A stretch of DNA of 64,000 bases, from positions 17,016,501-17,080,500 of the forward strand of contig NC_134963.1 in the NCBI RefSeq assembly GCF_965638725.1, given 5' to 3'. Position numbers and translations under genes: made by a program. This DNA comes from Aptenodytes patagonicus. Taxonomy: Eukaryota; Chordata; Aves; Sphenisciformes; Spheniscidae. Each line of letters starts with the position of its first letter. Position 1 is the stretch's first letter. The notes under the pieces were generated by a model. It was not told the origin of the DNA. It ran no database searches and worked only from the letters and a program-made list of their open reading frames with translations. Positions 1 to 64,000 of this stretch are shown here, one piece after another.

Positions 1-425
1 ATATTACCAGCTGCCTTTTCACAAATCCTTTAAGATCTCCCAGTATAAATAAAATGTTTAAGAAATGTTTAAGCCGTCACTGTCTGCACTGCTTGCCGGC
101 TGATTATCCTAATCAGAGGCCGTTTGGTCACCCCAGGTCCACGTGAGGATGCTCACAAATGGCAGGCAAGAAATGATGGCCACCACGGAGTTTGCACGGG
201 GTGTCCTTCCTGCCACGGGAGGAATCGCGTTAACTGTGGTTTTGAACAACCACAGGCAACCTGCGCTCTGGGGCATAAAACAGGGGGGCTGGGGGAGACC
301 CAACGTTTCTGCAACGGCATCCAGTGAGCCAAGAACAGAGACAGCTGCCACATCTCCTAAACACAGCCCTTGCCTACCAGCACATGCAGCAGACGGCCTG
401 CAGGTACACATAGGACTCTCCTTAC

Positions 426-512
426 CTGCATTTCGGTCAGGACTTCGATGTCGTAGGTGCAGAAGAACTCCTTGGGGCGCAGGGCTATCTGCTCCGGGTG
501 GGAATCCATCGA
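426..512 (-). CDS. AIFM3: AIFM3 coding exon 8
   Basis: 87-nt phase-0 exon encoding [17 protein letters not shown] through IEVLTEMQ. It is the last exon before the left edge; donor GTAAGG at 425-421. The 425 bases to the left are intron. Confidence 0.94.
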
Positions 513-9500: not shown

Positions 9501-12500
9501 CCAGTCTGGGTGATGCATTTCTCCAGCACGCAGCTGGGCCAGCACTGCCTGCTACCATTACTCCGACTCTGGGTAAGGACCTGCCTGAAGCCCATGCTGA
9601 GAAAATGCCAGGATGCTATTTTTAAGCACCAAGATGGGAAACCACTGTACCTCATCCCACTTCAGTCAATAACACCAGCAACATTTCTTTTTGCTACTGA
9701 AAGGATCCCATCAGCCCAAAAAGCTCCCTCCTTCCCCCACAAACAGGATTTTGATTTACAGGGAGCTGTGGTTTTGTGGCTTTTATTAAGACTGAGTGGC
9801 CTGAAAAATCATAAGGTGATTTTTTTTTTTCCCTTTAAGACATTTTTTTAACTCCTCAGTGGCTGGGAACCGATAAACAGAACAATACGAAAAGCCCCAT
9901 AAAACCAGGCTTTGAGTGGGGACAGTGAGCTGCAGCTGTTTCATACCATCCAAGAGAGATTCAGCTCCAGCTGAAGAATGAAGCAGAAGCCAAATTTAAT
10001 GGCGCCCATGCCGTTTCGTTCTTCAAAGTCACCCAAAGAAGCCCCAGCCCTGTGACCAGCAGTGGCAAGCTGGGGTCACCAGCAAACCAGATCTGCGGCG
10101 AAGTGCTCCCAGGAGGTTTGTGCACCCCCAGCTTTCTGCCCATGCCTTCCCCCAGCGAGAAGATGCCAAGAAGATGCTGAGCGTGTCGCATGGCACTGCC
10201 CCATGCCCAGCAGCACAGCCGGATGAACACCGGGCTGTCTTTTGCCAACACTTTGATGCCCCTGGTTAGCCTCCTAGGATGTGATGCAGACTGACCTTTG
10301 ACCAGCGGAGCCCCGTAGTGGGGACACTTGTGTCCCACGGCGTGGAACTCGCCACTCTCCTTGATGAGCAGAGCCTTCCCGCAGCCCAGGTCCACTTCCC
10401 GCATCCTGGGGAAGAGGAGCACGGAAAACACATGGCAGAGCATCCGCCTGGCAGCGGATGCCACCCTCTCGCCCTGCACCCCAGCCCTGGCCCCACCAGG
10501 CTCCCCCCCTCCTTCAACTTGCTCACCACCGGCTCCAGGTGACCTGCAGGTGTGGGTCACTCCTGTCACCAAGCCAGTTTTGGAGGTGGCTGTACTGCTC
10601 CCAGCCTGGGGCACATCCAAGCTGGGCCATTGAGTGGCAGCTTCTTCATCCATCACTGTGCCAAGAGGTGGCCCAAAGCACCTCCCCAGCTGCTCGGGAA
10701 GCAGCTGGTGGTCTCCACCCAAGTCCAGGGGGTCAGAATAAAGCTTTTCAGCACGTAGTGGGAGCAAGAAGCCAAACGGGTTTTACTGCGACATCACCTC
10801 CCCTCCTGGCCCCAGCAGCTCAGCAGGTCCCTGCCAGGCTTGTGTTCACTCACTCAAAGCAAACACAACATTTCTGAGACTTGAAAACCAGGAGAGGCGA
10901 TTCTGACCCCCTGCATACTCCGGCCTTGGGGTCTGCCTCCCTGCGCCTCAGGGGGTCATGCTCTGGTCCTGGCCACATCCCAGGGTCAACAACGTGGGTC
11001 ACCTTTTCCTGATAAAACCCTCAGGACAGCAGACACCTACATGTGACCTCCTTGCTGTTTCCCTCAGCTGTTTTTGCAGAGTAAAGCTCACACAGCGACC
11101 TGCCCGCCTGCTCTGGGCTGCTGGCCCCAGCTCTGCATCACGGAGGGGCTTTGCCTCCCTGGTGCTGCTGGCACTCAGCCCCGCATTCGCATAGGAGCCA
11201 ACTTAACCCTCAAGCCATTCCCCCGGAGAGATTCAGGTGCTCTCTGAAAGACCACAGTTGCTTGTGTGGTACCCTGGACAAAAGCGTGATTAGCACAGCA
11301 GGAATCCTTTACACACAAAGCTTTGCAATTTTTAGGCTCTCTGGGTCACACCTCCCCAGCTGCAGTCACCTGGTCCTTGACCAGCCAAGGCAGGCTGAGG
11401 CTCCAGCCACCCCTGTCCTGGCCAAAAGCATCTTTTTACCGATCACGCACCTTGTCTGCAAAGACAGAAAGAGATCCCCATCTGCTGAATGAGTGATTAA
11501 TGATGCCATTAGTGCTGGAAAGCAGCGTTTTAGAAAATCCTTTCTAACTCCCTTGGCTTGACTGAGAGCAGGGCTGTGCTGAGCGACACACACCTCTGCG
11601 CTGGCCGCAGTGTGGGTGCAGCGTCCCCAAATAGCAGGTGCATTTGCCCACAGCAGCCGGCTGCCCAGGTCTCCCTGGGAATGGCGTGCCTCCTCCCCGG
11701 TGCCCGGCGGCAGCCAGCCGGCTGTGGCCCGTTGCTCTGCTTGCTGCAGGCTGGCCGGGCGCAGGTTTTGCGATGCATCTGCAACATGTGCTTTTATTTG
11801 CAAGAGTTTCCAAGCCCTGCAGACCATATACAGAACTGGGCTGCATTTAGGCAGTGGCATTACACCGGGCAGTTGCATTATGCACTGAAATATGAGTCTT
11901 TCAACCATTCTTCATTTCCAGGAGGCTGCCCATTGCTCCTCTCCGCAGAGTCTGAAGATTGGGATGCAGGAGGTGCCAGCGCTGAGACCCCCACTCCTCC
12001 ACCTGCCCAGATCTCTGCTAAGGGGATTTCTGCAGCTTTCCACCCATGGGGCAGTGCAGGCTGCCCAAGCATCATTGAGTGAGACTGATGTTGCTCTGCA
12101 CTGAGCAGATGTCTACTCTCTGCTCTCTCACTATGTCTCCACCAGATGTTCATCCCAACATGTCCTGTCCTCACCTCCTTTTCTCGTCTCACCACTCAGG
12201 TGTTCCCTTTCCAAGCAACAGCCCTGATACACCCTGTGCAATCCATGGCCCTGTGTGAGGCACTGAACCTCTTCCCAATGCAATTATCAGCAGCTGTTTC
12301 CCTACAGCAGAGCCTTCCAGCTAACCATGGAGGAAAGCAGAGAGATGAGGAGTGAGCCCGCGTTTTGCAGGGAGCTGGGCGCGGAGCACAGAGCTGCTGT
12401 TCTCTGGAAACTTCCCTTCTTCCAGGCAGAAAACCTGTCACCGCACAACTTGATGTTTATCTGGAAATCCTGGTTGTTCCCATTGCATGAAGTGGACCGC

Positions 12501-15500
12501 CTCTACAGCAAGCCCGGCACATTGCATCTGGTGTACCGAATACACCACTGTGCACACAGCAAACCCCATGTGCTCAAGAAAGCTGCTGGCCATGTGTGAT
12601 CCCTGAATGCTGTTCAGGCACGGTAGGTCCCAGGGTCTCAGAAGAATGGGACGCACTTTGCATGCTCATTCCTCTTTGGGTTACATCCCAACTCTATCCC
12701 ATCACTAGCACCCAGGCTACAGAGACACGTGTCCCCCTCTCTGCTTCACAGCCATGGAGATGAGACCAGGGCTCAGTCCACCAGCACCTCTGTAACACCT
12801 TCAAACCCACCTTGGACAAGTCTTCGTGCAGGTGCCTGCTCCACCTGCATCAACTGTCCCACTAGAGTAACGGCAAATGCTCAATTTCCCTGCCACCTCG
12901 GGTGAAAACAGCAGCAGAGCTCATCATGCCTGCCCTTGGGAGCCGTTTTGTCCCAGTAAATTGGCAGCCCCACTCCCGAGCGATGCAGGTCTGCTCCCTC
13001 CCCGTGTAGGACACTTGGCACTTGGAGGTCCTTCCGTCAGCACAAGGGCAATAGAGCAGTACAAGTCCTACTGCATTCCTCAGCTGTGCAGAACTTCAGA
13101 TAAAACCTGCGGTTAAATGACAACCATAACTCTACGGGAAGATAAGATAAGATAAGATAAGATGAGTGAAAGAGTTTACAATTTACCCAAGGAACTGCGT
13201 GATCTGAGAGAGTCACAAACAAGACCTGGTGTCTTCAAGGCAGCACACAGCCACCTGCAAGGCTCCCGATCCTACACCCACTCCAGAGTGAGCGAGAGGA
13301 TGATTTACACTGCACTGCTCGCCGCTGAGCTATTTACTCAGCTGGAAATTTGTCCTGTTGCCCCACTCCACTCCCCACTTGTGAAGCACCAGCTAAAACT
13401 CAGCTCTGGCCTGCAAAGGACCTTTGCTCAGGAGCTGAGGGAGCACTGAGGGCTGTTTTCTGTCTGCAGCACACTGACCTCCCCCAGTCAGCCTGCTGGG
13501 AGGCTGGCTGGGTACAGAAGCGCCAGAGTTTACCCTCCAGCATCTTTTACTGGTTCTGCTGAGACCATCTTGGTACCAGAAGGATAGAAAGGGTGGGCAG
13601 AAAGAGTACCTTGTGCTTGCAGACTCCACTAACACAACATAGAGGTGCTCGAACCCTTGTGCCAGTGCCCCACACTGCTGCTGTGCCCATGCACACCCCT
13701 GCCCAGCACACTCCTCGAGAGAAGCATCCCAGAAAATCCCTCTGGGTATCACAGCAAGAAGGGACTCCTTTCATCTGGCATGTTGCTTACACAAGCCGTG
13801 GGACCTTCTTGCAGCACCTCTCTTTTGTGCTAGACTCATCCTGCTAGGAAAAAAGCTATTCTCAACTTAAAATGTCCAGTGATGGCAAGTCCGCTGCCAT
13901 ACTTGGCAGCGTGTTTCAGTAGCTGAACGTACACATGGTTGAAGTGTGAGCCCAGTTTCCAGACCGATGCCAGTTTCTAGCCCTGGCTTTAGCTGAGGAG
14001 CTCCCTGCTACAGCCGCCTGCAGCCAGGTATGTTCCCACGGACTGCAGCCAGGTCCCTCCTCACCTTCCCCACGACCGGCAGAGCTCTTCGAATCTTTTC
14101 ATCTACTATACTGCACGCTTTCCAGTCAATGCATCTATTGCAGCCCTAATTTTCCAAAGTCCTTCCTGCACTGGGGCACTAAAGCAGAGCACGCTTTTTT
14201 AGTAACGCCCCAAAGACAAAGTCAGCAGAAGCTGCCTCTGTGAACACTTGGTGCTCAGCCATCAGGCTACATCTTGACTTGACACTGGAACAGGACCCTC
14301 CCTGTGCAACCAGTATTTCCCAGGATAGTCTCCCCTTTTTGCTTCGCTCCAGCTTCAAGGCAACCCCGGTGACTGCCTGTGCTCTGCCCCAGGTCCCCTC
14401 TTCCCCAGCCCTGCTGTCGCTGCTCAACTGTGCAGGAGGCAGTGGGTTGCCCACCACCTCCCAGAAGCAGCCCTGCAGCCACTGTGCTTGCCTTCGAGTC
14501 CAGTGCATCTCTACTGGCTCCTCACCCCCACCTCTCACTGGAGGAGGCCATTCACCTGCTGGCCTGATGGCCCTCCAGCACTTCTCTGAGCTGCAGCAGA
14601 GCTTGCAGAGTCAGCCACACCTCATCACGTGAAGATTTAATCCAACAGAGTCCGGTGCATGCCTTTGTAGAACGGTCTAATACGTAAATTCCCATCACAA
14701 TGAAAAAAACAGTTTATTCCTGGATGAACTTACCTAATGAGAAGAATTTACAGCCCATAAAGCCCCTTAAGTTTAGCACAAAGTAGGCTGTAGTACATGG
14801 ATTATTCTAGAATATTATCACAAGCAATAGTTCAATTAAAAGCAAATAGCTGCCAGACTCCTGCTGTGTCCCACACACCTGACATCACTCCCTCACTGGA
14901 ATAATAGCTATTTCGAACTATGTTTTCTTTCACACAAGGACAGAGCCCGCTGAGATGTTGGCCATCAGACTAATGGAACATGCTGCAGAAAAGGCACATC
15001 TACCCCAGAAAAGAAACACCAGCCTGTAAAGCACCGTGACCGGGACAGGCACTTTTTAGGCTTCAGAAAACTCTTAAATCAGGGTAGTGAAACTGTACGC
15101 AGCTGAAGTGTGTTGCCATTAGCAAAAAATTTGGAAAACTGCATCCTTGGTGAAAGAGCAAATTGAAAGAGATGAGCTGGGCTAGAAGAGCAAGGCGCTG
15201 CAGAAGTGATGGAGCACACGATCTGCCCCATCAGCTCCACCCATGCGCTACTCATGCTGCTTCGTAAAACTACTAAGGCTATGAATTTATAAAAAATTGT
15301 CAGGGTTGTCTAACGCAAGCTGAGCAGAGCCTGTTGAGAAATTCCGCTACAGAACATCACATCTCTCTAAGACGAGTCCCAGGGCGGACCGTGCAGGGAA
15401 CAGTTGACCTTCTGGTAAAAAACAGTTGTCGCTTGTCCGTGATGTCATTTTTTAAGATGAAAAAAAAAAATTACTTTACTAAGTTAAATTATCATCTCCA

Positions 15501-18500
15501 GAAACTCTAAAGAACAAGACAGGGGGGTCGGTTTATGTTATAAGGCCTCTCAAGTTTTACCTGCAAAAATTTTAGGCACTTACTGTCCATTCTCCAAGTC
15601 CTTCACATGGCACACGGACGCTTCCACCACATCCTTTGGGTTGTGGTAGGGATTGCTGGCAATGGGATGCTCCTCGAGATGATAATGCCGGGCAGTCCCA
15701 TTGACTTTGTAGATCAGGGGGCTGGCTTTCCCGTTGGGCGACATCTCCTCCTTGCTTCTCTCCTTCTCAGGTATCACGACTTCAATTTTCACTTCAACTG
15801 CAGGAACAAACAGAAATCTTCATTAAAATGAAGCCAGAGGTTTTGCTGCCATTCTGCCTCTCCCTCCTTCCCTGGACTTCACAAGGGGCTGACAGACATC
15901 AGGACAGACATTTTTTGTTGACTTGCTTGGGAAGATAAAACATTTAATATCAAACTCGGCTTGATTATCCGAGCCCATTGTTCCACTGTTCTTTCTCCAT
16001 CAGGCACCTTTGCATGCATAAAGTACATATTCTTGCAAGCAGACATTAGTCATCAGTGCAAAACAACCCCTCAGTCACAGTTCCTGTCCTATTTAGTGGA
16101 AAACAGCTTCAGGTAGCTACATGTGAGGCATGCCAAGGCCTCTAGGGCTCAGACAGACTTCAAAAAACCCTTTAATTGTTTGTAGATAACATTAACTGAA
16201 AGAGAAAGCCAACGCTGCATGGTGTATAAAGCTGCTTCATTAGATGGAGACCAATTAATAAGGAGCTAGAAATATCCATGAGGTTTTCAGCATAGACTGA
16301 ATCTTCAGCATTAAGTGAGAAAAGCAAGGACTGTCCGTTTTACTTAGGTGTACACCATTGAACCCGTTTGACAATAAAGGCATCCCTGGCCTGGGGACCA
16401 GGGGACCCAGGGACACGCAGGAGCTGCTTGTGCCAGCACCGCGCATCCCCCAGACCATCAGAGGGGACACCGGAGCCAGCGGGTCCCCTCGGCCCCACCG
16501 CCACCCTGGGTGCTGTCACGGGGCAGTGATGGAGCAAGGCAGCCCCTGGCACTGCACAGCCGGGGCGCTGCCCCTCCGTCCCCCCCTGCCCTCCCGCTGC
16601 CTCGACCGGGATGTGCTGCCGGTCCTCCCCTCCCCACCCAGGGGCGGAGGGGGAGCACAGGGGCTCTCCTAGGCCACCCAGGTGAAGACATGCAGATGTT
16701 CATTGGCAGCGCTCGCCCAGCCTCGCTGTGCACCCACCCAGCCGCACCCCCACCCATCACCCCGTGCCTGGGGGGAGCAGGCTGGACACAGGAGCATCAG
16801 AGGAAGCCAGTGATGAGCTCTCACTTCATAAAGTGAAAAACATCACTTTAGCTCCTAGGGACTTCGCAAAACTAAAGCCATGAATATTTATAATAAACCC
16901 CAGGGGAGCTCTATAGCGAGCCGGGGGGTAAGTGCCAGAGACTGAAGAAGTGTCTCAAGCAAGTGGGAGATTGCTGAGCTTTCCCCATCTTATAAATGTC
17001 ATGAACAGGAAAAGCTGTGCAGAAGATAAAAATTAAAGCTCATGACCTAAACAGGTTAAGGAAAGGCAAAGAGAGGGGAACAATGTGCCCCAGAAGAGTG
17101 GGACGAGCCCTGCAGCAAGAGAAGGGTGCTGGGTCTTCCCAGCTTCATCCGTTGCCCCACGCCATTTATTGCAAGTCCATTGAGAGGACGATGAAAGAAA
17201 AGGTCAGGGGGAGGGTCGTTCATTTAGGAAGGGAGAAAAGCAAGTGGCCATGGCTGTCCAGGCACTGGAGGCAGGCGGCTGTTTCAAGAGTCCTGCGAGT
17301 TTCTGCTTTTTGTGCCAGCTCAGCAGGGCAGGGGATGGGGCGGCTTTTCGCCAAAGTGCCAAATCCTCGCACTCACCAGGGGCAGGATTCACTGGGGGCT
17401 CTGACAGACAGATCCAGTAAAGCAATTTTCTGTGCATCCACACTAAACCAACAGAAAATGTGAACTTCTGTTGCGTTATTGCAGCTGCCCGCTGCAGGAG
17501 TTACTGCAAACTAATAGGCCCAGCACCATGCCTTAAAAAAAAAAAACGTTGCTATGAGCAGATTTGTTCCTGGAGCTCTACAGAAGCAGCCCAGCTCCCT
17601 GCAGGTACCCAGCAAAGAGGCCGCTTTCCATAAGCACTGTTTTCCTATGGCGTTTGGAAAAGCAGACATGGATTTTTCAGGACAGAGTTAGGAAATATTT
17701 CATAAGATTACGCAGTCGATCAGACATTTATCTGGAGTGAACGCGGCTGCGCATCCTTGCGGCCAGACCCCGGAGCCGGGCAGCATGCTGTTGCTGCTGC
17801 CGACCGCGGTGCAGGATGAGACTGGGCTGGCACCGGTGAAGCTGCCAGCTCCGAGCCTTAACAGTGACGTTGATGCCGGTGAATTCACCCTGCAGGGAAC
17901 AACCCCCATCTCTCACTTGGCTCGATGCCCCAGAATTTTGTTTTCCAAACTACATTTGGGTCAGGTGAGCACCCGGAGTGCTCGCTGATCCACGGGCATA
18001 TGAACCTGTGGGGATGAAGATGGAAATTTTGCTCTGAGCTCTTCACTTCTTTCTCGGTCAGAAAAACATATGCAAAAAGCAGCAGGTCTCTGGCACCGGT
18101 ACGTGACAGCGTTCCCAGCCATCCCCGCTCGGCACTCACTGACACTGCTGGACAAATGTCCAGAGGAAAAGAAAAAGAGGTATAAAGTCTCCCCCCCTCC
18201 TATTTCGGGCCCCACACTTCACCACTTGCCTCCGTGGGGGGCAACTCCCACTTGCCTCTCCCCAACCCTTTATCCCCCCCTTCTCCTCCTCCTCCTCGTC
18301 CCCCCCGGCCCCGCGTGGGGCGTCCCTCTGGCCAGAAACCTGCATTCCCGAAGGATGATCCCTCCAGGAATCCAGGGCTCAGCGGCACCTGAGCTGATCC
18401 AGCAAACTGCTTCAATTGCCATCAGGGAAAATGACATTTAAATGAGATATTTATAAACCCAAGCTTAATTCTGAAATCCAATTGGCAGGGTGTGGCTGGG

Positions 18501-37708: not shown

Positions 37709-37734
37709 TGACGTCACCCAATGCTTTCGTTTTC
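37709..37734 (+). promoter_or_regulatory. CRE, CCAAT box and ISRE-like element
   Basis: Within 26 bp: TGACGTCA (37709-37716, perfect CRE palindrome), CCAAT (37718-37722) and TTTCGTTTTC (37725-37734), whose complement GAAAACGAAA fits the interferon-response consensus GAAANNGAAA. The start codon of the UBL gene follows at 37773. The cluster suggests a compact promoter responsive to interferon. Confidence 0.6.
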
Positions 37735-37772: not shown

Positions 37773-38048
37773 ATGGCTGAAAGAGACGCCATGGTGGAGC
37801 AGCAGCCCGTGGCCAGCAGCCCCAGCAAGCTCCGTGTCTTCATTAAGACTTTGTGCAGCAAAACGTTTGCAGTGCCAGTGCCTCTGGATGACGATGTCCG
37901 GGAGCTTAGGCTAAGCTGAATGCACAGGACTCCTCCCTGACCCCCGAAACGGGAATGCTGCTCTACAATAGCAGACAGATGGAGGATGTCCTGACCCTGC
38001 AACACTATGAAATCACACCCAACCGCTTTTTGTACCATACACTAATAT
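37773..38048 (+). pseudogene. UBL exon: ubiquitin-like domain with one frame slip
   Basis: From ATG at 37773, about 18 residues lead to KLRVFIKTL, matching the ubiquitin start. After RELRL (about 37914) the frame breaks where AAA is expected but only AA is present; the next frame continues with LYNSRQMED (ubiquitin 45-52 region) and LTLQHYEI. The K11 equivalent is Lys, K48 is Arg and K63 is Pro. The hydrophobic patch positions 8 and 44 are Leu. Donor GTAAGT at 38049. The single slip sits in a homopolymer, so a sequencing error is possible. Confidence 0.82.
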
Positions 38049-38623
38049 GTAAGTGCAGGGTGGCCCGGGGGAGGTGGATGAGGATCTGTCTAGAGGTGGG
38101 AGAGGGGGGGTGGGTGCAGATCAGGGATCTGCAGGCCCCCTCCACCCCCGAGGAGGGACCCTGGCCAGGACTGCAGGCAGGAGCCTCCACAGGCAGGAGG
38201 GAAGGGGCAAGGCGGATGCAGCTGTGTGTGCACCAGGGAGCTGCCAGAGCATGCTTGCACTGGAAGGTGGGAGGAATGCGAGGGCCCAGGGATGCACCTA
38301 TGCAGGAGGAAGGCAGGAGGGAGAGGAAGGACTCCGTTCTTGGAAGCTGAGCAAGAAATCTGCTCTCTGCATGGCAGCGGGGAAGGATGGAGAGGCAGAG
38401 GCTGGGAGCATGTTCTCAGCCCCACAATGCGCTGCCCTCCTAGGATGGGCAGCTGAGTGGGATTCCTGGTACCCAGCGGCTTGGTGCGAGTGGGCACAAA
38501 CTGCCAGGAAGAGGTTTCATAGCAAAGGCGTGAAGAAGAGGGAGAGGACGGGCAGAGGATGGGATACTCCTCTGGACACGACCTGGCTCCTGAGCTCTCC
38601 TCTGCTTTGTGTTGCTGGTGCAG

Positions 38624-38662
38624 CGCGAGGCGGTGGTGAAGCTGTCAAATCTCGATTTTCAG
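38624..38662 (+). pseudogene. UBL C-terminal exon (RGGG)
   Basis: 39-nt symmetric phase-1 exon between GTGCAG and GTAAGG. Spliced to the first exon it gives YHTLISRGGGEAVKSRFS, placing Arg-Gly-Gly exactly where ubiquitin ends in R74-G75-G76, then running on. Confidence 0.75.
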
Positions 38663-38945
38663 GTAAGGTCATGCCCTGGTCCTCACTGACAACCTGGTGC
38701 AGCGGGGCTGGTGGAGCTGCACGGTGGTGAGAGTAGGACCTCAACTCACTGCATGATGGTGAGCATGTCCCTGCCACGGTTCATGGAGGAGGATGTGGAA
38801 GTTGCGGTAGATGTGGGAGCATGCGGTGGTACACGAGGGGACCGGTGTGGCTAATGGGATCAGGAAGGTTGGGCGAAGGCTGCTTGGGGATGGCTTCTTC
38901 GCCCAAACATGAGGGAAAAACGACAACGTCTTCCTGTTGTTCCAG

Positions 38946-39022
38946 TCACAGACTTAGCCCTAAGGAAGCTGGTGGCAGGCCCTCGCAAATCTCTGACAGA
39001 TGAGGCCTCGGGGAGCGCAGAG
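38946..39022 (+). pseudogene. Linker exon of the UBL-FIIND-CARD gene
   Basis: 77 nt after acceptor TTGTTCCAG, phase 1 in and 0 out, encoding TDLALRKLVAGPRKSL and an acidic end; donor GTGAGG. Predicted from splice signals and open phase only. Confidence 0.5.
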
Positions 39023-39286
39023 GTGAGGTCTTCCAGGACACGATGCCTGAGGCCGGGGTGCCTGAGTGAGGAGCGCTTGCGGGGCTGGGGAGGAAGGCAC
39101 GGCTGCAGCGCGTGGGTTCACAGCCGGCCCTGCGGATGGGGGGTCCGGTGCTGCCCATCGCCACCACAGCACCGCGCTGGGTGGCAGGAGCTGGTGGGTG
39201 CTGCCCTCTGTCCCAGGAGAGGGACCTCACCCTGCTGGCAGGCCAGGCGGGCACAGCTCCCGCGCCAGCCTGTTTCCTCCCTGCAG

Positions 39287-39499
39287 GAGCGGGGAGCAGG
39301 GCCAGCACTACACCTGATGCTGGGAATGTTGCTCATGCTCTCAGAAGACCTCTCCTCCCGCCTCCAGCGGGCAAGCACGGCTGGAGGGGAGAAATACAGC
39401 TTGCGAGTGCTTTCCTCTATGTTCCCCTCTGCAGGAGCGCTATCACTGGCTGAACCTGGGCTCACCACCGCAGGGAAACTCTGGCAGTGCACGGGGGAG
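39287..39499 (+). pseudogene. Possible second linker exon
   Basis: 213 nt, exactly 71 open codons, phase 0 at both ends, acceptor CTCCCTGCAG and donor GTAAGG. It would join the previous exon in frame. An internal acceptor at 39434 offers a shorter form. No domain recognised. Confidence 0.35.
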
Positions 39500-40309
39500 G
39501 TAAGGGCTTTGCCGGTCCTGGCAGGGCACTGTCGCACCCAAAGGAAAGGGCACAGCAGGGAGCCTGGGACTGACCCTGGCTGTCACCTGGGAGGTTGGGT
39601 GTGCCTTCAAAACCTGTTATTCGCAGCAGTTCTTCATCCTCCAGAAGAGTCCGGTCCCTTTTGCTATGCTAACTCAGCATGCACTGCCCCAGTTTTCAAG
39701 TTCGTGGGAAGACAAATTCCACTTGCTCGCATCCCAAATTTATTCTCGCTGCTAAACATTTTGTCTGCCTGTGGCCACTGTCCTCTCTGCTGATACACCA
39801 TGGCAGAGAGGGAACAGCCCAGGCTTTACTCACAAGAAAGTCAGCAGCCAACAACATTTTCTCTCTCAGGAAACAGAAACTTTCCTATCTGGAATTCCCA
39901 TTTGCAAAATACATCCTAAAAATCAGGGGGTGAAACACGTAGTTTTGAGCTCCGGGAGCTGCTCTGCGTGTCCACCCATTATCTTTCCCACTGATGCACG
40001 GGGGATGCATGGACTAACCGATGCCTTCCCCACCCCAGTGGCATCTACCCAAGTGCGGCTAAGTGTTCAGTCCTCCTTGCTGTGCCTGCGCACAGGATTT
40101 CTCTTGGGCACCGCTACAAGGATCTGCATTAAAGGGGTCATGAGCCTCAGACAGGGCCAGTGCTTGTTTCGGATCCCAGGGCAGAGGAGTTGCCAGTCAA
40201 TGATTTTTCTGGCCTCTTCACTGATGAGAGTGATGCCTTTCTGGGCACCAGGCAGCAGCTGCTGATCCCCTGCTGCTACTTCCAAGGCTCCAAGCTCCCA
40301 CGCCAAGCT

Positions 40310-40469
40310 GCATCGTGCTTCACTGTAAATCCCAGCACACCTCCTGCAAGCAGCACCCAGTGCGCAACACCCCATTCAGTCCCAAAGTGGCCACACTCGT
40401 GTTGCAGGATCTCCCAGAAGTGATGCCGGAGATAACCCAAGACTTTTTGAAGTACCGCACCGTGTACCG
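40310..40469 (+). pseudogene. FIIND exon (lead-in to ZU5)
   Basis: Open frame ending VMPEITQDFLKYRTVYR at donor GTAAGA (40470). The final YR aligns with the YRVHFP start of the mammalian FIIND core. The 5' boundary is uncertain. Confidence 0.6.
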
Positions 40470-40552
40470 GTAAGAGCTGTCGGGCGAAACCAGAGCACCT
40501 TCCAAAAGCCCCATCCTAGGCGGCATGAGCCTGTCGTCCCTCCCACCTGCAG

Positions 40553-40850
40553 AGCTCACCTCCCTGGTGCAGGCGTCTTCCAGTGCTCCAACACAGGCCT
40601 CAGCTTCGAGGTGAAGTCGGCAGTGACCATCACCTACAGATACGTCACCTGGACCAGGCACCTGAGCAAGGCTGACGAGGAAACATGGGTGCCCGCCAGA
40701 CCCCTCTTCCACATCAAGGTGTAGCCCGGGGCACGCGGGCAGTGCGTCTCCCCCACTTCATCTGCCTGGCAAGTACAGCAGCTGCAGGGACCTGGGTCTC
40801 CCAAGCCACCATCCCTCAGCCTGTCTCCCACCCGGGGACGTCTCCGGCTC
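40553..40850 (+). pseudogene. FIIND ZU5 exon with stop and frame slip
   Basis: Begins 83 bp after the previous donor. Reads AHLPGAGVFQCSNTGLSFEV, then VTITYRY, TWTRHL and PLFHIKV, a clear FIIND/ZU5 match to CARD8 and NLRP1. An in-frame TAG at 40732-40734 stands where Glu is expected, and one base is out before VRLPHFICLA (from 40742), the conserved start of the next FIIND strand. After about 40790 the match fades. The self-cleavage Phe-Ser is not identified. Confidence 0.82.
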
Positions 40851-41753
40851 CTTGGAGACCTCTCTCCAGACAGGCCCAAATTCTCCCTTCCCTCTGAGGT
40901 CACCTGAACTCCCCTGTATTCCTCTGCTTTGCTTTGGCATCCTTCATCCTGCTCTCACTTTCTATCAAGCCTTCGCAGTGCTCCCTTCCCCAGCTCCCGC
41001 TCCACACCACCAGCCCCTCCTCACCCACCCTCTCTACTGGGTGACCAGTACAAATTCCGTGGTGATAACACCTGAAGTAAGTGGGATTATTCCTTTTTTT
41101 TTTTTTCAGTGAAATAGAAAGTACAAGAAGCCTCTGCCTTCAGCCATATTCTGCTACCAGAATCTGTCTTACTAGATCTCAGAGCCAGAGGTGCAGGGAG
41201 CTGTACTGGCAAAGATATCTCATGATACACATCCTCAGAAAGAGCATGGAGCACACCCCAAAGCCCCAAAGGAGCTGTGTTTGTTCTTCCTTAAGGCAGA
41301 AATCATAACGTGGGACTTGTTGGACTTACCATAGCTGCATATCAAGAAGGAATTTCAGAGGTGTTGACTCAGGTGTGGTCCCAAGTCCTTCATCTTCATC
41401 TCCTCTGGAGTGAGTTTCCTTCAGCTTAGGAGCAGGACTGGAGAGACACTTTCTCTCTGTGCCATGATGTGACATGACTTCTTTCTCTATTGAAACTCCG
41501 TCTGAGGATTTCTGATTTTGGGCACCATGCCCTGTGGCAATCAGATTGCAATGGCTGGGAAAATCTGGGAAGATTTGGCCATTTAGCCCTTGTGGTTGTT
41601 TTACACAGGAGTTTGTGACATCCTGAGAGCAGCTGATGACAACCCAATGGCTGGTTGTGAAAATCTCCTTTCATGGGTCTGCACTGCACCATAATCATGA
41701 AAAGGGAATCAGAGAAACTTAGGTTGGATGGGACCTTAGGAGGTCTCTGGTCC

Positions 41754-41868
41754 TGTTACCATAAGTCGGCAGGTGATGAACTCCCTAAGACTCAGTTTGG
41801 AGTTTTAGAAAGCAGGCATTCTTTATTGTGGCGCCGGGGGCTAGGTGGAATTTCCACAAATCAAGCAC
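41754..41868 (-). repeat. ERV 3' LTR remnant (R-U5 only)
   Basis: 115 bp matching 44624-44738 of the 5' LTR with four differences, all transitions, three at CpG. The U3 part is missing; the sequence runs directly into reverse-transcriptase coding sequence at 41869. Confidence 0.9.
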
Positions 41869-42624
41869 CGTAAACCACTGATGAACCTCTCTTAATGCTG
41901 TTAAAAGTGTATATGGATTTGCAACTACAGGGTGTATGTCTTTCACTATTTGATTTATAGCCCTTAAATCCTGGACTAATCTATATTCACCTGAAGGTTT
42001 TCTTACTGGTAAAATTGGGGTATTATATTCTGACACACATTCTTCAAGAATTCCAAACTTTAAAAATTTGTCAATTTCTTGATTCCTTGTCTAACCTCTG
42101 GCTCAACTGGATATTGCTTGATTCTCACTGGTTTTGCCTGTTCTTTTAATTCTATTTTTACAGGTTGTGCTGTTTTTGAGTTACCGGGTACGTCTGTATC
42201 CCAGACTATAGGTACAACAGCCTGATCTACTTCTTGTGGTATTTGTTCCTTAACCTTCTCCTGTATCATCAATATTTCACCTGTCTTTGATTCTGGTATT
42301 TTTAAAAGAATTTCTCCTTCTTCAAACACTATTTGCGCATTTAGTTTGGACAATAGATCTCGCCCTAACAAGGGTATCGGACAATCTGGCACATACAAAA
42401 ATTCGTGTGTAATTACCTTATTTCCAAATTTCAAATCTAGGGGTTGAAGGAATGGCCTGTTTCCCTGTTTCCCAGTCCAGTTATACTAGCCATTTTATTT
42501 CCTAATTTCCCTTTGCAAGTATTCAAAACAGAATATGTTGCGCCCGTATCTACTAAAAATTCAACTTATCATCTCCCAGCTTAATTATAACCAGAGGCTC
42601 AGCTGGGTTCCCCTCCAGTCCTCT
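41869..42624 (-). pseudogene. ERV protease and start of reverse transcriptase
   Basis: Downstream of the gag stop in the same frame, then a slip just before the protease active site (VDTGAT at about 42538-42555). The next open piece (42060-42434) carries the C-terminal protease strand and the linker to RT; after another slip, 41869-42036 encodes the RT fingers with YNTPILPV, YRLVQDLRAIN and VANPYTLL. RT stops at VLDL, well before the catalytic YVDD box, where it joins the LTR remnant. Confidence 0.88.
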
Positions 42625-42627
42625 TCA

Positions 42628-44198
42628 GTCGTCTAGGGTCATCATCCTTGCTGCTTCTCGCCGACCTGTCCTCAGTTCAGGACAATTCCTTTTCCAATGT
42701 CCTTTTTTCCTGCAATATGCACATTGATTTAGCCCTAGAGGTGCATTAGGTTCTCGGTTACCAAAGTTTCTAAAACCTCCTCTTCCTCTGGCCCGTCCTC
42801 TTCCTTGTACTGCATTGCCTGTTAAAAGAGCCATCAATTTGCTCTCCCTACCTTTACCTTTCTTTTCTTTTCTTTGTTCTTCTTCTTTCTCTCTATTGTT
42901 ATAGACTTTCCATGCTACTTCGAGCATTTTATTTAAATTTCTGGAATCCTCTCCCTCCAACTTTTGGAGTTTCCTTTTCATATCGGGTGCTGATTGTCCC
43001 ATAAAAATCAAAGCCAATTGTTGTTGTTCTGCCTCTGTTTCCAATTTTAGATCAGTATATTTTCTAGCAGTTTCCTTTAATTTTTCTAGGAGCACAGAGA
43101 GAGATTCATTTTTGTCTTGTTTTACCTCATATAATTTAGACCAATTTAGGGCTCTTGGCATTGCATGCTCTACTCCATACAACATCCATTTTTGATACCG
43201 ATTTAACCTTCTTCTGTGTTCTATATTATTTGGGTCCCATTGGGGATCTCCCAAAGGGAAATTCTGCTCCAAAGTTCCAGGGAGAGGTTCACTCGTGTGC
43301 AGCCTCTGCTTGTGCTCTTGCTGCTTTTAACACCATCTGTTTCTCAGCACTACCCAACAAATTATCCAATCTCACTTGTAAATCATTCCAGTCAGGATCC
43401 TGAGTTCTAATAATTGTCTCTACCACTCTTCCTACCCTCTCTGGATCTTCTCTGTATACCCCTGCTGCTTGTTTCCACGCCATCGAGTCTGTGATTGAAA
43501 ACGGCACTTTCACATATACCGGCCCATTCTGTCCTACTCCCTGCCTTAAAGGAGCTAGCGATTGGGTTTGTCGTCTAGTTCTTCGAGAAACTGGAGTATG
43601 AGCCTCTACCTCTTCTATCTCCCCCCCCATTCCACTACTGTCCGGTTCTGTTTCAACACTTCTTTCCCTTACACGTGAGGGAGGGAAATTCCGTCCCTCC
43701 TGCGGGGGTGCTACTTCTAGTTCTAACTCCTTTTCATCCTCTTTTGGTCCTGTACACCTAATGCACTTCTTTCCAATATCACAAGCCAAACAACAACTCT
43801 TTTGTTTTCTTATTCTCCAAAGTTAACGCCATTACCAAAGTATCTCGGCTAATTAACTTACATTCACTCTGCCAATCCACTCGCTGCCTCAAAGAAAAGA
43901 ACAAATCTACGTATGGTACTTCATTCCATTTGCCTTCTCTTCTACAGAACACCATTAACTGCAGGATAGTATTATAACTCAAAGTTCCGTTCTTTGGCCA
44001 TTTTTCCTGATCCTCCAAAACGTACAAAGGCCACCAATGGTTACAATATTCAATCATCTGGGTTTTGCGCAAATCATCATGTAAATCACCCCAATGCACT
44101 AACAAACACCCCAACAGCGAGGTTTTTGGTATCTTTTCATCCGTTGCTAAATTCCCAGCACTTTTACTCTTAAACAGTTTTACAAATCCTGATGCCAT
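42628..44198 (-). pseudogene. ERV gag, split by frame slips
   Basis: Three open pieces in different frames: matrix 43779-44198 (ATG at 44198; motifs KWPKNGTLSY and REGKWNEVPYV), p12/capsid start 43289-43789, and capsid C-terminus plus nucleocapsid 42625-43272 with the zinc knuckle CAYCRKKGHWKRNC. Slips lie near 43785 and 43285. Capsid shows the QSAPDMKRKLQKLE major-homology-like stretch. The matrix starts MASG rather than MG, so no Gly2 is available for myristoylation. The frame ends TLDD then TGA at 42625-42627, the position of the read-through stop in murine-leukaemia-type viruses. Confidence 0.88.
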
Positions 44199-44600
44199 TA
44201 CAACAAATATTCAAAGGTAATTATAAAATTATAATTCCCAAATAACTATATATGTATTATATATATTATATATTTTATATATATATCAATATTAGTATAT
44301 ATATGGCTCGCCAGTTATATAACCAAACAAAGTCCAACCCAGCAATAGCTTTCACTTATGACTTACGGGCAGACGCCTAGGCTTCCGACTGCAAAACAGG
44401 TACCCTCTTAGCCCCAGCCTTACAGGCAGGCTTTTTCAACTGCAAAATATTCAAGTTTTGAAAGAATGCCTTGATACTTACAAAGCAATGTTCTTGGCTC
44501 AGGGGCTCTTTGGTCCGGGGATCGGAAAATCCTCTCTGAGAATCCCTCGGTGCCGGTTGAGGTTCCGTGATCCCAGGATCCGTCGAGGCTCCAGAGCAGG

Positions 44601-44618
44601 GTCCCATCTGGGTCGCCA
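44601..44618 (-). other. ERV primer-binding site, tRNA-Arg-like
   Basis: TGGCGACCCAGATGGGAC begins 5 nt inside the LTR end. By eye it agrees at 15 of 18 positions with the 3' end complement of vertebrate tRNA-Arg (CCG/TCG type, from memory), better than Lys, Pro or Trp. Confidence 0.5.
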
Positions 44619-44623
44619 AAATC

Positions 44624-45274
44624 TGTTACCGTAAGTCGGCAGGTGATGAACTCCCTAAGACTCAGTTTGGAGTTTTAGAAAGCAGGCGTTCTTTATTGCG
44701 GCGCCGGGGGCTAGGTGGAACTTCCACAAATCAAGCACACCTATGCCAAGTTCACCGTGACATTTATACACAGAAATTACACGGTAGTACACTCCCAGTT
44801 ACAATGATTGGTTAGTGATTTGCATATAGTTATAATATCTGCTGTGTCATTCTCTTGTGTTACTACGCTTGCGCAGGGGAAGGGTCTTCACCTGGGCAAG
44901 GGTCGTCTTGACCTGTGGGTGTGTTTTTTAGTATTACAATGAAGGCAGCGCACTTCAGGACACCTTAAAAGTAGGTTTTGTTGCCAAGTTGGCCAGCTAG
45001 ATATCTACCTTGCCAGGTTGTCAAATAACTCATCCCATATACAACAGAACCTCGGGGCTCTGGTTATGGTCCAGAGAATAAGGACTGAGGCTGACATGGT
45101 CCAGAGAATAGGGACTTCAAGCAACCCAGCCTCGGATAACAAGTAGCACAGCAACCCATACATAACGTTAACATAGAGGCTAACTTCCTAAATCAAGATG
45201 TTCTTACAGTTGCTTATCCGTTAACAAAAACAAAATATAGAAAGATTCAATAAAACTTATGATAATCTTCAGCA
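44624..45274 (-). repeat. ERV 5' LTR (651 bp)
   Basis: TG...CA ends in the minus sense. TATAAA at 44763-44768, inverted CCAAT at 44801 region, octamer-like ATTTGCAT near 44818, poly(A) signal AATAAA at 44692-44697. A direct repeat GGTCCAGAGAATA(A/G)GGACT near 45070-45120 may be an enhancer duplication. Confidence 0.88.
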
Positions 45275-46205
45275 GTCCAACCTCTTGCTCAAAGCATGCG
45301 AGTTTTAAAGTTAGATCAAAGTGCTCAAGGCCATGTCCGGTCAAGGTTGAATATCTCCAAGGATGGAGATACCACAGCCTCTCTGGGTCTCTAGTCCAGT
45401 GTTGTAACATCCTCATTGTGATTTTTTTTCCCTATTATCTAATCGAAGTTTCTGTTGCTGCAGCCTGTGCCTGTTGCCTCTTGTCTCATCGCTGTGTACC
45501 TCCAGGAGGCTGGGTCTGTCTTTTCTTTAGTTCCTCTTCACATAGTTAAAGGCAGTGATTAGTTCTCCCCATGTCTTTTTCTTCTACACGAACCCAACTC
45601 CCTCTGCCTCTGCTCGTATATCGTGCACTCCAGCCTGGAGCTGGCCTTGCTCCAGGATGCCCATGTCTTTCTTGTACTGGGAAGCCCCCAGCTGGACCCA
45701 GTGCCCAAATGTGGTCTCACAAGAGCTGAACAGAGGGAAGGAATCCCTGACCTCACTGTGCTGGCTGTGGTCTTGCTACACAGCCTGGGATGCGGCCAGC
45801 CTTTGCTGCCAGGGCACACTGCTGACTCCTGTTCAACTTGCATGCCCACCAGGACTCCCGCGTCCTTCCCTGAGAAGCTGCTTTCTGTGTCCACCCCGTG
45901 CCCAGGCTCTTGTCTGGAGTGGGGCTATTCCATCCCAGACGCAGGACTGTACATTTGCCTTTGCCGAATTGCACGAGCTTCCTGCCAGCTAAGTTCTCCA
46001 GCCTTTCCAGGTTCCTCTGAATGGCATCCCTCCCGTCCAGCTTATTCGTCATCCCCCCTTGCAGCTTCAACCCTGCTCCTGAGCTGAGCGCAGCCCCAAC
46101 AGCCAGGGCCTTCAGCTTAACTGAGAGACAGTCTTAAACCCGTGAATCAGGGTTTGGTTTTCCCACTTCGACCAGGTGGTAACCGGGCACTCAGCCTCGA
46201 AGAGC

Positions 46206-46500
46206 AGTTGTAAAGATGGCAGAGCCAAGCTCTCGGCACCGTCAGATAAAAGCGGTAAAAGCCCTAAGTTGCAACCTGGGAAGTTCAGGCCGAATGTTAG
46301 GAAAAATTTTATCACTCGGTGGAGATGCAGCCATCAGAGAAGGTTAGACGGTGGTGAATCTCTGCTCTTTGAGGTTTTCAGTACTCAGCTAGACAAAGCC
46401 CCGGCTGAGCAGATCTAGGCTTGACATTGGTCCATCTTTGAGAGGTAGGTCAGATAAGACACCCCAGAGGTCCCTTCCAACCAAAATTTGTGATATTGGC
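46206..46500 (+). mobile_element. CR1 fragment
   Basis: Plus-strand 3' CR1 piece: GAAGTTCAGGCCGAATGTTAGG, GGTTTTCAGTACTCAGCTAG and CAGAGGTCCCTTCCAACC. It is diverged, and lies about 140 bp before the UPA exon. Confidence 0.75.
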
Positions 46501-46639
46501 AGCATGGCAGAGCCCTGACATGTGCATCTTCCCTTGTCTTTCCCCTTGCTGGCACGGCCAGGAAACACAGGATGATGTATGCGAATTCACTGCAGCTCCC
46601 CACTGTGAGAGAGACTCAGCTTGCTTCTTACCCTTACAG

Positions 46640-46756
46640 GCACACTTGCCATTTTGCTACAAGAGTCCGAAGGAACAGCAGCTCTTTGTCAAGATCTACA
46701 TCAGGAACGTGGCAGACGCAATGACACCGTGGTCTGGAGGGCATCACTGAGATCAG
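46640..46756 (+). pseudogene. UPA C-terminal exon with frame slip
   Basis: After acceptor CCCTTACAG it reads HLPFCYKSPKEQQLFVKIYI, matching the last strands of UPA (LxYRSPGExQxFxxFY). Near 46723 the frame slips; the remaining frame gives DTVVWRASLRSG, matching the ETLVWE(A)LVKPG end of the mammalian exon. Phase 1 donor GTAGGA. Confidence 0.8.
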
Positions 46757-47934
46757 GTAGGAACAGCAGGTCCATCTAGGGGCTCATTCGCCTTAGCAAA
46801 AGCAGAGGTGTACCCCCCAAGCAGACCTCACGCATTTTGTGGTCACAGTCATCCACGCATCCTCCAGGGAAAGCAAACCCTGCGTATGCAGCAGTTGGCC
46901 ACTGAAGAATAGGGACCTGAAAGGACACCCCAATGTCAGTAGACCAGAGCTTCAGATTTAACGTGGAGTTTCGGATGCTGGGGTTTAAGAGAGCATGACA
47001 GCACTATCGGTGTCTCTCTGTTCTCTTGGCTACTGTTTGCATAGAAATCTGACTTATTTTTAAAAGTCCATTAATGTAGCGAACACCCACTGAGCGATGC
47101 AGAGGAGGTAAGGAGAATACCAAAATTTTAGTGAAAATCGACATCTTAAAAACCTACATGTTCCAGGCAGCACTACTCTTCTAGATTTGCCGGGTGCGAC
47201 ACCAGTGTGTGAAAGAGCGCACAGGGTCGGGGCAAGGACAGATGGACCAGAGCCGGCCTTCACCACACGTCTCTGCTCACAGCGGCATCACGAACGTGGC
47301 ACGCAGCAAGCCTGCTGATGGTGTGGGGACGGCTCTCTTGTGGCATAAAGAGACCATTGCTTCCAACTATCCTGCTTTAGGGCTGACGGTACTGACTTGG
47401 GTCCCATGCAGAACTTCGGTCAGGACAGCAGATGATGGAGGCAGAAAGAGCAGGGTTAGCGATGGCGGGTGCCAAGACTCACGTTCGTGTGTCCTCTGGG
47501 CGGACAGAGGCAGCTCCAGGGCGGCAGGTTCCTAGTCTCCACGCCTCTCTGCCCAGCTGCTGCCACGTCGGCTCAGCAGCCACTGCACATGCTGTTAACT
47601 TCACGTAGCAACACCCACCCGTGGGGTCCCCTGTGGGAAAGCTTGGCAGAGGAGCTGTGGGCAGCAGCATCTCGCAGGTGCAGGGTATGGTACTGCTCAG
47701 CGTGCCTTGAGACCCCTTCTCTGTTAGTCTAATCCAGCACCCCCTAAAAGTAACACCTACAACCGTGCAGAGCCCAGGACCTTTTACTGAGTTCTCCACA
47801 TTTGGGCAGGAACAGTAGGAGGAATGGCTAATGGCTTCATGGAGGATTAGGCACCTCAGGAAGATGTCATGGAAGATTAGGCACCATCATTTCAGTGATG
47901 GCATATTCAGTGATCTCTCTCCTTTCTCTTTCAG

Positions 47935-47976
47935 GTGATATTAATCTTCCTGCCTGTGTCTCCAAGACCTTGTCTG
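47935..47976 (+). pseudogene. 42-nt hinge exon between UPA and CARD
   Basis: Phase 1-1 exon after TTTCTCTTTCAG, encoding DINLPACVSKTLS. It matches the GDLMPATTL-type hinge that NLRP1 has between UPA and CARD and joins both neighbours in frame. No lesion. Confidence 0.68.
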
Positions 47977-48774
47977 GTCAGTACCGTGTTTCAGAGCTGC
48001 ATTTCTAGAGTCTGAATCTATTTCTATGGAGCTCGCCATCCTCTGGTTTAAAGCCGATATCAGCCTCTTTTCCCATCCTTATGATAGTTTCTAGACAAAA
48101 AGCCTTGAAAGCTGCAACCTCAGACTTTGATTCCCACACTGCTGGCAGCACGCTGTGTGCCGTGCTGGTGGGTAAAGTGGCATTAGTGCAGATGACCCTC
48201 CAAACTGGTTTGCCTTCTTTGGGGACAGACGTGCTGTTGTTACAGAGAATGAGCTGCAGCTAGTACAGTTCACGGTCCATAAATAATATTTCATTGGAAT
48301 TCTAGTGAGCGGTACAGCTGCTGCATCCCGTACAGCCACCTCGGGGGCTGACAGCCGCTGTGCCGAACGGGAGCATTTTCCACGGGAGCGACGCTGCTGG
48401 GAAGGAGCCTGCAACCAGGTGTTGGCAGAGGGGACGGCAGGGCCACCTTTACAGCAGATCCAGGAGTTTCTGACCAAGGGGCTCTGCTTTCCACTTGCTT
48501 CAAATACAGTAACAACAGCATGCTGCCCAGCAGTTCTGCAGGTATTACCCCAGCCTAATTTCTCCAGGGCAACAACATTCCATCATTGCATCTTGCATCT
48601 CCTCTCATCAATGAAAGGCCAGATCCAAGAGGACACCCAGGCAGCTAAGCCACAGGATGAGGCAGATAGGCCTGGCTCAGATAGACACAAATTTGGACAT
48701 TTTGGCATTATTCTTTATCCTTGCCATGCACATGGATGGAGTCACCACACTGGCCTACAACCTGTCCGACAGCA

Positions 48775-49068
48775 CCAGGAGAGTAGGGTGGCAGGCAGGA
48801 GCAAGGACAGGACAAGGGGCAAGGGTTTTAAACTGAAAGAGGGCAGGTTTAGATCGGACATATGGAAGACATTTTTTACACTGAGGGTGCTGAGACACTG
48901 GAACAGATTGCCCAGAGAAGTTGTGGATACCCCATCATTGGAAGTGTTCAAGGTCAGGCTGGATGGGGCTTTGAGCAACCTGATCTGGCGAAAGATATCC
49001 CTGTCCATGGCAGGGGGGTTGAACTTTAAAGGTCTCTTCCAACCCAAACCATCCTGTGATTCTACAAG
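48775..49068 (+). mobile_element. CR1 fragment
   Basis: 3' end of a CR1 LINE: GGTTTTAAACTGAAAGAGGG, GGAACAGATTGCCCAGAGAA, CTCTTCCAACCCAAACC and a final TGTGATTCT. It lies in the intron before the CARD exon, close in sequence to the 7.2-kb copy. Confidence 0.92.
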
Positions 49069-49627
49069 GAGATGCCCATCTGGGTGCCCACTTCAGCCTC
49101 ATGTAGGAGGACTGGGTGGAGGCTTGGGAGGAGAAGCCAGGCAGTGCTGTCCGCTGCACTGACCCACGGCTTGTTCAGCACCCTGCTGGCGTCGGCTGCC
49201 TTTCCAGGCTCTGTTTCTTTACAAACCGCATGCAATCCTGCGAGATTTCAGAGCTTTGAGCGACCTGTGCTCTCAGTTAAGAGCTCCTCACCTTGCCGGG
49301 GGTGGGGGGGGGCCAGGACAGTAACTTCACGCCCAGGCACTGTAGGAATCCCAGAGGGGACAGCTGCCGGCAGCTGATGGGGGCTGCCACCCTCCCCCAG
49401 CTCTGACTTCACGTTCCCACGCCCTTCCTTGCCCTGCCTCCAGTGCTCCCACCGCTGGTGCAGCAGGTGCCCATCCTTTTTTGTGGAGGGATGGAGACAC
49501 GTGGCTGTGGGACAGGGTGCACAGCCATGGTGTCCGCTGGCTTAGGATGCCACGTACCGCAGCACGGCACTCACCTGCGGCTGCCTGGCTGCGTGCAGCA
49601 CAAGAACATGGGCTTGGTGTCTGCTAG

Positions 49628-50085
49628 GTGTAGCCTTCATGAAGAAGCACAAGACTGAGCTTTGCTCCAGGATGAGGCAGCTCTCCACCATTCTGCTACA
49701 CTTACGGGATGCAAACTTCATCAACAGCAATGAAGAAGAGGAGGTGCAAGGTCAAGGTACGAGTCAAAGGAGGAACCAAGTTTTGCTGGAGATAGCTGAG
49801 GAGAAAGGGCCGGAGGCCCAGGAGCAGCTCTACCAGATCCCCCGGGTGATAGACCCGTACCTCAACGCAGACCCGGAAAAGTCCAGCTGGGCCTGGGAAA
49901 GCAGACTGCTTTTGCTCCCATTGCTCAGCTTACGGGAGCAAAGAAGGGCAGGCAGTCAGGTTTACCAGCACCTGAATCCTGACCTGTCAATGCAAAATCC
50001 ATGGTGCAAAGCAGCAATAAGCCTCCTGAGCCGCCTGGTCTCAGGCCTGCCTTGCTTGGCTGATTTGGTTGCCAGCAGTGGATGA
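49628..50085 (+). pseudogene. CARD exon, intact, with C-terminal extension
   Basis: Begins VAFMKKHKTELCSRM and runs through an acidic helix (NSNEEEEVQ), QVLLEIAEEKGPEAQEQLYQ and IDPYL, aligning over its whole length with the CARD8 CARD (AFVKENHRQLQARM ... DPYL). About 85 residues form the CARD. The frame stays open for about 68 more residues to TGA at 50083, an extension that CARD8 and NLRP1 lack; it may be genuine or the result of a lost stop. No lesion inside the CARD. Confidence 0.8.

Positions 50086-52715: not shown

Positions 52716-64000
<11,285 letters not shown>

Follow-up and report, generated by a model that had tools for sequence, protein, structure and literature searches.

What kind of gene once lay between AIFM3 and POLE in the lineage of Aptenodytes patagonicus, and can its product still be made? 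The window, by which we mean the whole 64,000-nucleotide (nt) stretch analysed here (contig NC_134963.1, positions 17,016,501 to 17,080,500 of the forward strand), carries exons for a ubiquitin-like (UBL) domain, the ZU5 start of a FIIND, the end of its UPA half, a 42-nt hinge and a CARD. All lie on the + strand in that order, an arrangement proposed in the initial annotation and borne out by Pfam and by alignments. The same annotation treated the locus as joined; it is instead broken by four lesions, and the catalytic middle of its FIIND was not found. We read the locus as probably a unitary or lineage-specific pseudogene of a UBL-linker-FIIND(ZU5-UPA)-CARD sensor, with a UBL front end that is itself probable. 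The exons found in this genome cannot yield such a sensor protein.

Domain content and splicing

The ZU5 half of FIIND is present in the 40.55-kb exon, which matches PF13553 in Pfam at 2.9e-20 up to an in-frame TAG (40722-40724). Against the PDB, the ZU5 reading finds NLRP1 first (1.2e-15) and then CARD8 (1.6e-9); like the UBL and UPA-hinge-CARD readings, it is a conceptual translation with X at the lesions, here two, and with its pieces assumed to belong together. All five of its significant matches are NLRP1 and CARD8 chains. At the other end of the locus, the C-terminal CARD that follows the UPA is recognised by Pfam (PF00619, 2.9e-12), and the CARD exon finds CARD8 first in the PDB (2.1e-8); none of its 21 matches is an NLRP1 chain. 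AlphaFold modelled the CARD stretch alone poorly (mean predicted local distance difference test score 65.3), and the model was not used.

The end-of-UPA exon reaches a tblastn score of 28.5 bits, equalled by none of 200 shuffles. Translated together with the hinge and the CARD (X at the lesion), it matches CARD8 almost full length at 4.1e-13, and NLRP1 chains follow at 8.7e-7 and weaker. The initial annotation had named the exons at 40.55, 46.64 and 49.63 kb as those that profile searches should place in FIIND, UPA and CARD. Pfam places the first and the last in FIIND and CARD, whereas the UPA-end exon alone yields no FIIND or UPA match there and owes its position to the CARD8 alignment.

The call of a ubiquitin-like domain holds up as well, at 6.8e-7 for PF00240 (29.4 bits, where the cut-off is 25.4) when both halves of the exon are joined with X at the break. 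The second half alone gives 0.0028 (17.8 bits) and the first half alone no match; the best single-ubiquitin chain in the PDB matches the joined reading at 1.1e-6.

AG/GT borders are found at six junctions (38048/38624, 38662/38946, 39022/40408, 40469/40553, 46756/47935 and 47976/49628). Their phases join the UBL exon through those at 38.62, 38.95 and 40.41 kb to the ZU5 exon at 40.55 kb and, separately, the UPA exon through the hinge to the CARD. The canonical splice sites and joining phases first described are thus confirmed for these junctions, but ZU5 and UPA remain unjoined. The phases of the UBL and UPA exons are those of the frame after each break, and the exons were chosen partly for fit, so that the phases support the joins without proving them.

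Lesions and probable decay of the locus

FIIND sensors cut themselves at an SF/S motif, according to excerpts of PMC3210808. The 134 NLRP1 residues that include this site, the FIIND middle, were not detectable in the + strand frames of 40.70-46.66 kb. The best tblastn score there was 17.3 bits, equalled by 179 of 200 shuffles in a test covering + strand frames with a human NLRP1 query, and the ZU5 start, used as positive control, scored 45.4 bits and was matched by none of the 200. Across the whole window the best match to the FIIND middle had an E-value of 2.7 and lay inside POLE. FIIND was likewise absent from the Pfam results for ten open + strand pieces of the gap, a subset of its frames. 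Since the self-cleaving middle was not found, the join from ZU5 to UPA is lacking.

The gap is occupied in part by a fragment of an endogenous retrovirus on the opposite strand. Two of its open pieces match Gag_p30 (1.7e-24 and 1.8e-8), while Gag_MA and a zinc knuckle score under the Pfam cut-offs; a 116-nt direct repeat, 97% identical, is found at 41753 and 44623. By eye, a stretch resembling reverse transcriptase can be seen at 41785-42090, and it has no Pfam match. The insertion of the fragment may have taken out the FIIND middle, or it may have followed the death of the gene.

The four lesions are spread over three exons. The UBL frame shifts near 37913 with a net loss of 1 nt. The ZU5 exon carries its TAG and, ahead of LPHFICL, a second net loss of 1 nt, the spacing from HIK to LPHF being 29 nt against 30 nt in NLRP1. 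A stretch of 54 nt in CARD8 is matched in the UPA exon by 26 nt, which makes a net loss of 28 nt. The TAG was considered as a natural exon end and rejected, because NLRP1 homology carries on downstream in the shifted frame, through PGA and LPHFICL (PGA..AV.LPHFICL).

Could the gene be working, and the lesions be errors of assembly or base calling? Two of the four are net single-base losses, and the frames of the linkers, the hinge and the CARD stay open. The neighbouring genes, however, are clean: 252 AIFM3 codons and 712 POLE codons were checked and show neither stop nor frame break. (The count is 964 of 965, as one intron codon reading as a stop lies inside a trimmed POLE block, and a few other border codons are intronic.) The locus thus has 4 lesions in 331 codons against 0 in about 964, a difference with a Fisher p of 0.004 in a test that assumes independent sites and rests on the chosen exon borders. 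Clean neighbours make assembly error unlikely, and neither the 28-nt loss nor the missing FIIND middle is a single-base slip or within reach of base-calling error. On these three grounds assembly error was rejected as the source of the lesions, and a working gene is highly improbable.

A shorter product might nevertheless survive, either the CARD alone or a UPA remnant with the CARD, made from the 3' exons and regulating CARD signalling. The hinge is open, and so is the CARD exon with its CARD8-like domain. Yet if lesions fell here as often as in the other exons, chance would leave the CARD domain untouched with a probability of 0.22 and the entire open frame with one of 0.08, so that this openness lies within chance and is no proof that a product survives. 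In the CARD exon the earliest in-frame ATG, at 49639, also has a poor context. We regard such a product as very unlikely. The frame of the CARD exon runs on for about 64 codons beyond its CARD8-like end (49891-50085), which may be a genuine tail or the result of a lost stop.

Several points weigh against a decayed UBL-FIIND-CARD gene. A diverged middle exon could evade a search that starts from human NLRP1, and the CARD exon keeps an open frame of 458 nt. The proposed link from UBL to FIIND passes through linker exons that show no homology and were picked partly for fit. The assumptions of the lesion test noted above belong here too.

A probable ubiquitin-like front end

That the UBL and FIIND exons formed one gene is suggested by their order, their joining phases and the promoter-like motifs ahead of the UBL exon. 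TGACGTCA and TTTCGTTTTC sit about 39-64 bp upstream of its ATG; we take the former to be a palindrome like the cAMP response element (CRE) and the latter a core like that of the interferon-stimulated response element (ISRE). The window has 10 copies of GAAANNGAAA, where 2.3 would be expected, and none of 100 shuffles reaches 10. With ten copies, the chance that one falls within 100 bp of the UBL ATG is about 1.6%, a figure for a motif spotted post hoc. The upstream motifs hint at a gene start at the UBL exon and at interferon control.

Alternatively, the UBL exon could be a separate gene or fragment, 2.4 kb upstream of an ordinary FIIND-CARD relic. No UBL-FIIND protein was found in the excerpts of open-licence PubMed Central literature that were searched, where the two papers naming both domains treat them separately; this favours two units, as do the linker exons with their want of homology and a UBL match whose significance requires both halves. 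Against it, the two parts share strand and order, and phases join the end of the UBL exon into ZU5. The exon also ends in a strong donor with no di-glycine C-terminus ahead of it, which fits an internal domain. On balance we think a separate UBL unit unlikely, though it deserves real weight, and keep to a single decayed gene that began with the UBL.

Genomic setting

The AIFM3-POLE setting was recovered by tblastn from exon matches on both sides (Table 1). Human AIFM3 and POLE served as queries, and identity to human AIFM3 was 59-95% per match. PXMP2 and CRKL sequences were tried as extra neighbours and rejected as not convincing (best match E 0.023, CRKL). A second copy of the locus exons was not found within the window, where the best other match had an E-value of 0.42. 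The interval from the AIFM3 exons to the UBL exon, 15800-37700, spans about 22 kb.

Table 1. Features of the locus and its surroundings, in window coordinates.
Feature	Position	Strand	Evidence and remarks
AIFM3, left neighbour	423..15798	-	tblastn; six exons recovered; cut by window edge
CRE-like TGACGTCA at 37709 and ISRE-like core TTTCGTTTTC at 37725	37709..37734	.	promoter-like stretch
UBL exon, from ATG	37773..38048	+	PF00240; context GGGATGG, donor GTAAGT
Candidate linker exon, phase 1 in and out	38624..38662	+	AG/GT borders, open frame; no known homology
Candidate linker exon, ending in phase 0	38946..39022	+	AG/GT borders, open frame; no known homology
Exon preceding ZU5, phase 0 in, 2 out	40408..40469	+	second half falls within NLRP1 alignment
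ZU5 (FIIND start) exon	40553..40772	+	PF13553; right border uncertain, possible donor GTACAG at 40773
Endogenous retrovirus fragment	41753..44738	-	gag pieces and 116-nt repeats resembling long terminal repeats; sits in ZU5-UPA gap
End-of-UPA exon	46640..46756	+	tblastn 28.5 bits; part of CARD8 match
42-nt hinge exon, phase 1 in and out, open	47935..47976	+	aligned within CARD8 UPA-CARD linker
CARD exon, open 458 nt to TGA	49628..50085	+	PF00619
POLE, right neighbour	52845..63348	+	tblastn; 18 exon matches; cut by window edge

Proposed mechanism and significance

By analogy with CARD8 and NLRP1 (excerpts of PMC3210808, PMC10249858 and PMC12945228), the ancestral FIIND would have cut itself at SF/S. 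The UBL-ZU5 half would then have remained bound and kept the UPA-CARD half silent. Destruction of the UBL half may have been the trigger, for example by a pathogen protease, or through the UBL acting as a bait for viral enzymes that target ubiquitin-like proteins. The released UPA-CARD would have polymerised and directly recruited a CARD caspase. The new element in such a scheme would be a UBL in the place of a disordered protease tripwire.

It is possible, and we put it forward tentatively, that UBL-FIIND-CARD is a third kind of FIIND sensor, present in sauropsids now or in the past and under interferon control, in which the UBL is a bait whose attack by viral enzymes frees UPA-CARD. On this proposal the sensor was lost in the present lineage, and intact orthologues would lie between AIFM3 and POLE in other birds, crocodiles or turtles. 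Such relatives may already be present in automatically annotated bird genomes under NLRP1-like or CARD8-like names. A UBL bait ahead of FIIND, if true, would be a new way of sensing attack on the ubiquitin system. Because the present copy is dead, it is evidence of history and not a usable protein; the interest lies in the UBL-FIIND-CARD architecture rather than in this copy.

The bird literature gives the question some context. The avian NLR homologues named in excerpts of one review are NLRX1, NLRP3, NLRC3 and NLRC5 (PMC7157566), and Pycard was not found in chicken according to excerpts of PMC13076529. CARD8 works without ASC (excerpts of PMC12945228), so whether a CARD8-like sensor is present or has been lost matters for how birds activate caspase-1. 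A fish review presents an NLR tree that includes chicken and an NLRP1 clade, and its excerpts do not state whether chicken belongs to that clade. A literature match to a duck 'NLRP1' was rejected, since the excerpt shows it to be NLRP12.

Comparison with known systems

CARD8 shares with the locus the sequence of a FIIND followed by a CARD; the CARD found here is nearest to that of CARD8, and the UPA-hinge-CARD reading also matches CARD8 best. The N-terminus is disordered in CARD8 (excerpts of PMC10249858), whereas at the locus a UBL exon lies in front, a difference if that exon belongs to the gene. The two also differ in the FIIND itself, whose middle was not detected here, and in the broken frame of the locus. 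With NLRP1 the likeness lies in the ZU5 start, which is nearest to NLRP1 (1.2e-15 against 1.6e-9 for CARD8). However, the CARD is not nearest to that of NLRP1, and no NACHT-LRR was noticed at the locus, where 16-37 kb stand without a Pfam scan.

Among sauropsids, an unusual combination of domains is also seen in another FIIND gene, the Nlrp1-like LOC100556846 of anole, a PYD-FIIND gene described in excerpts of PMC13076529. It has a PYD where the locus has a UBL, and it has no CARD. PIDD and UNC5 also place a death-fold domain after ZU5-UPA (excerpts of PMC3210808). In these proteins that domain is a death domain, whereas the locus has a CARD, and its ZU5 matches are chains of NLRP1 and CARD8.

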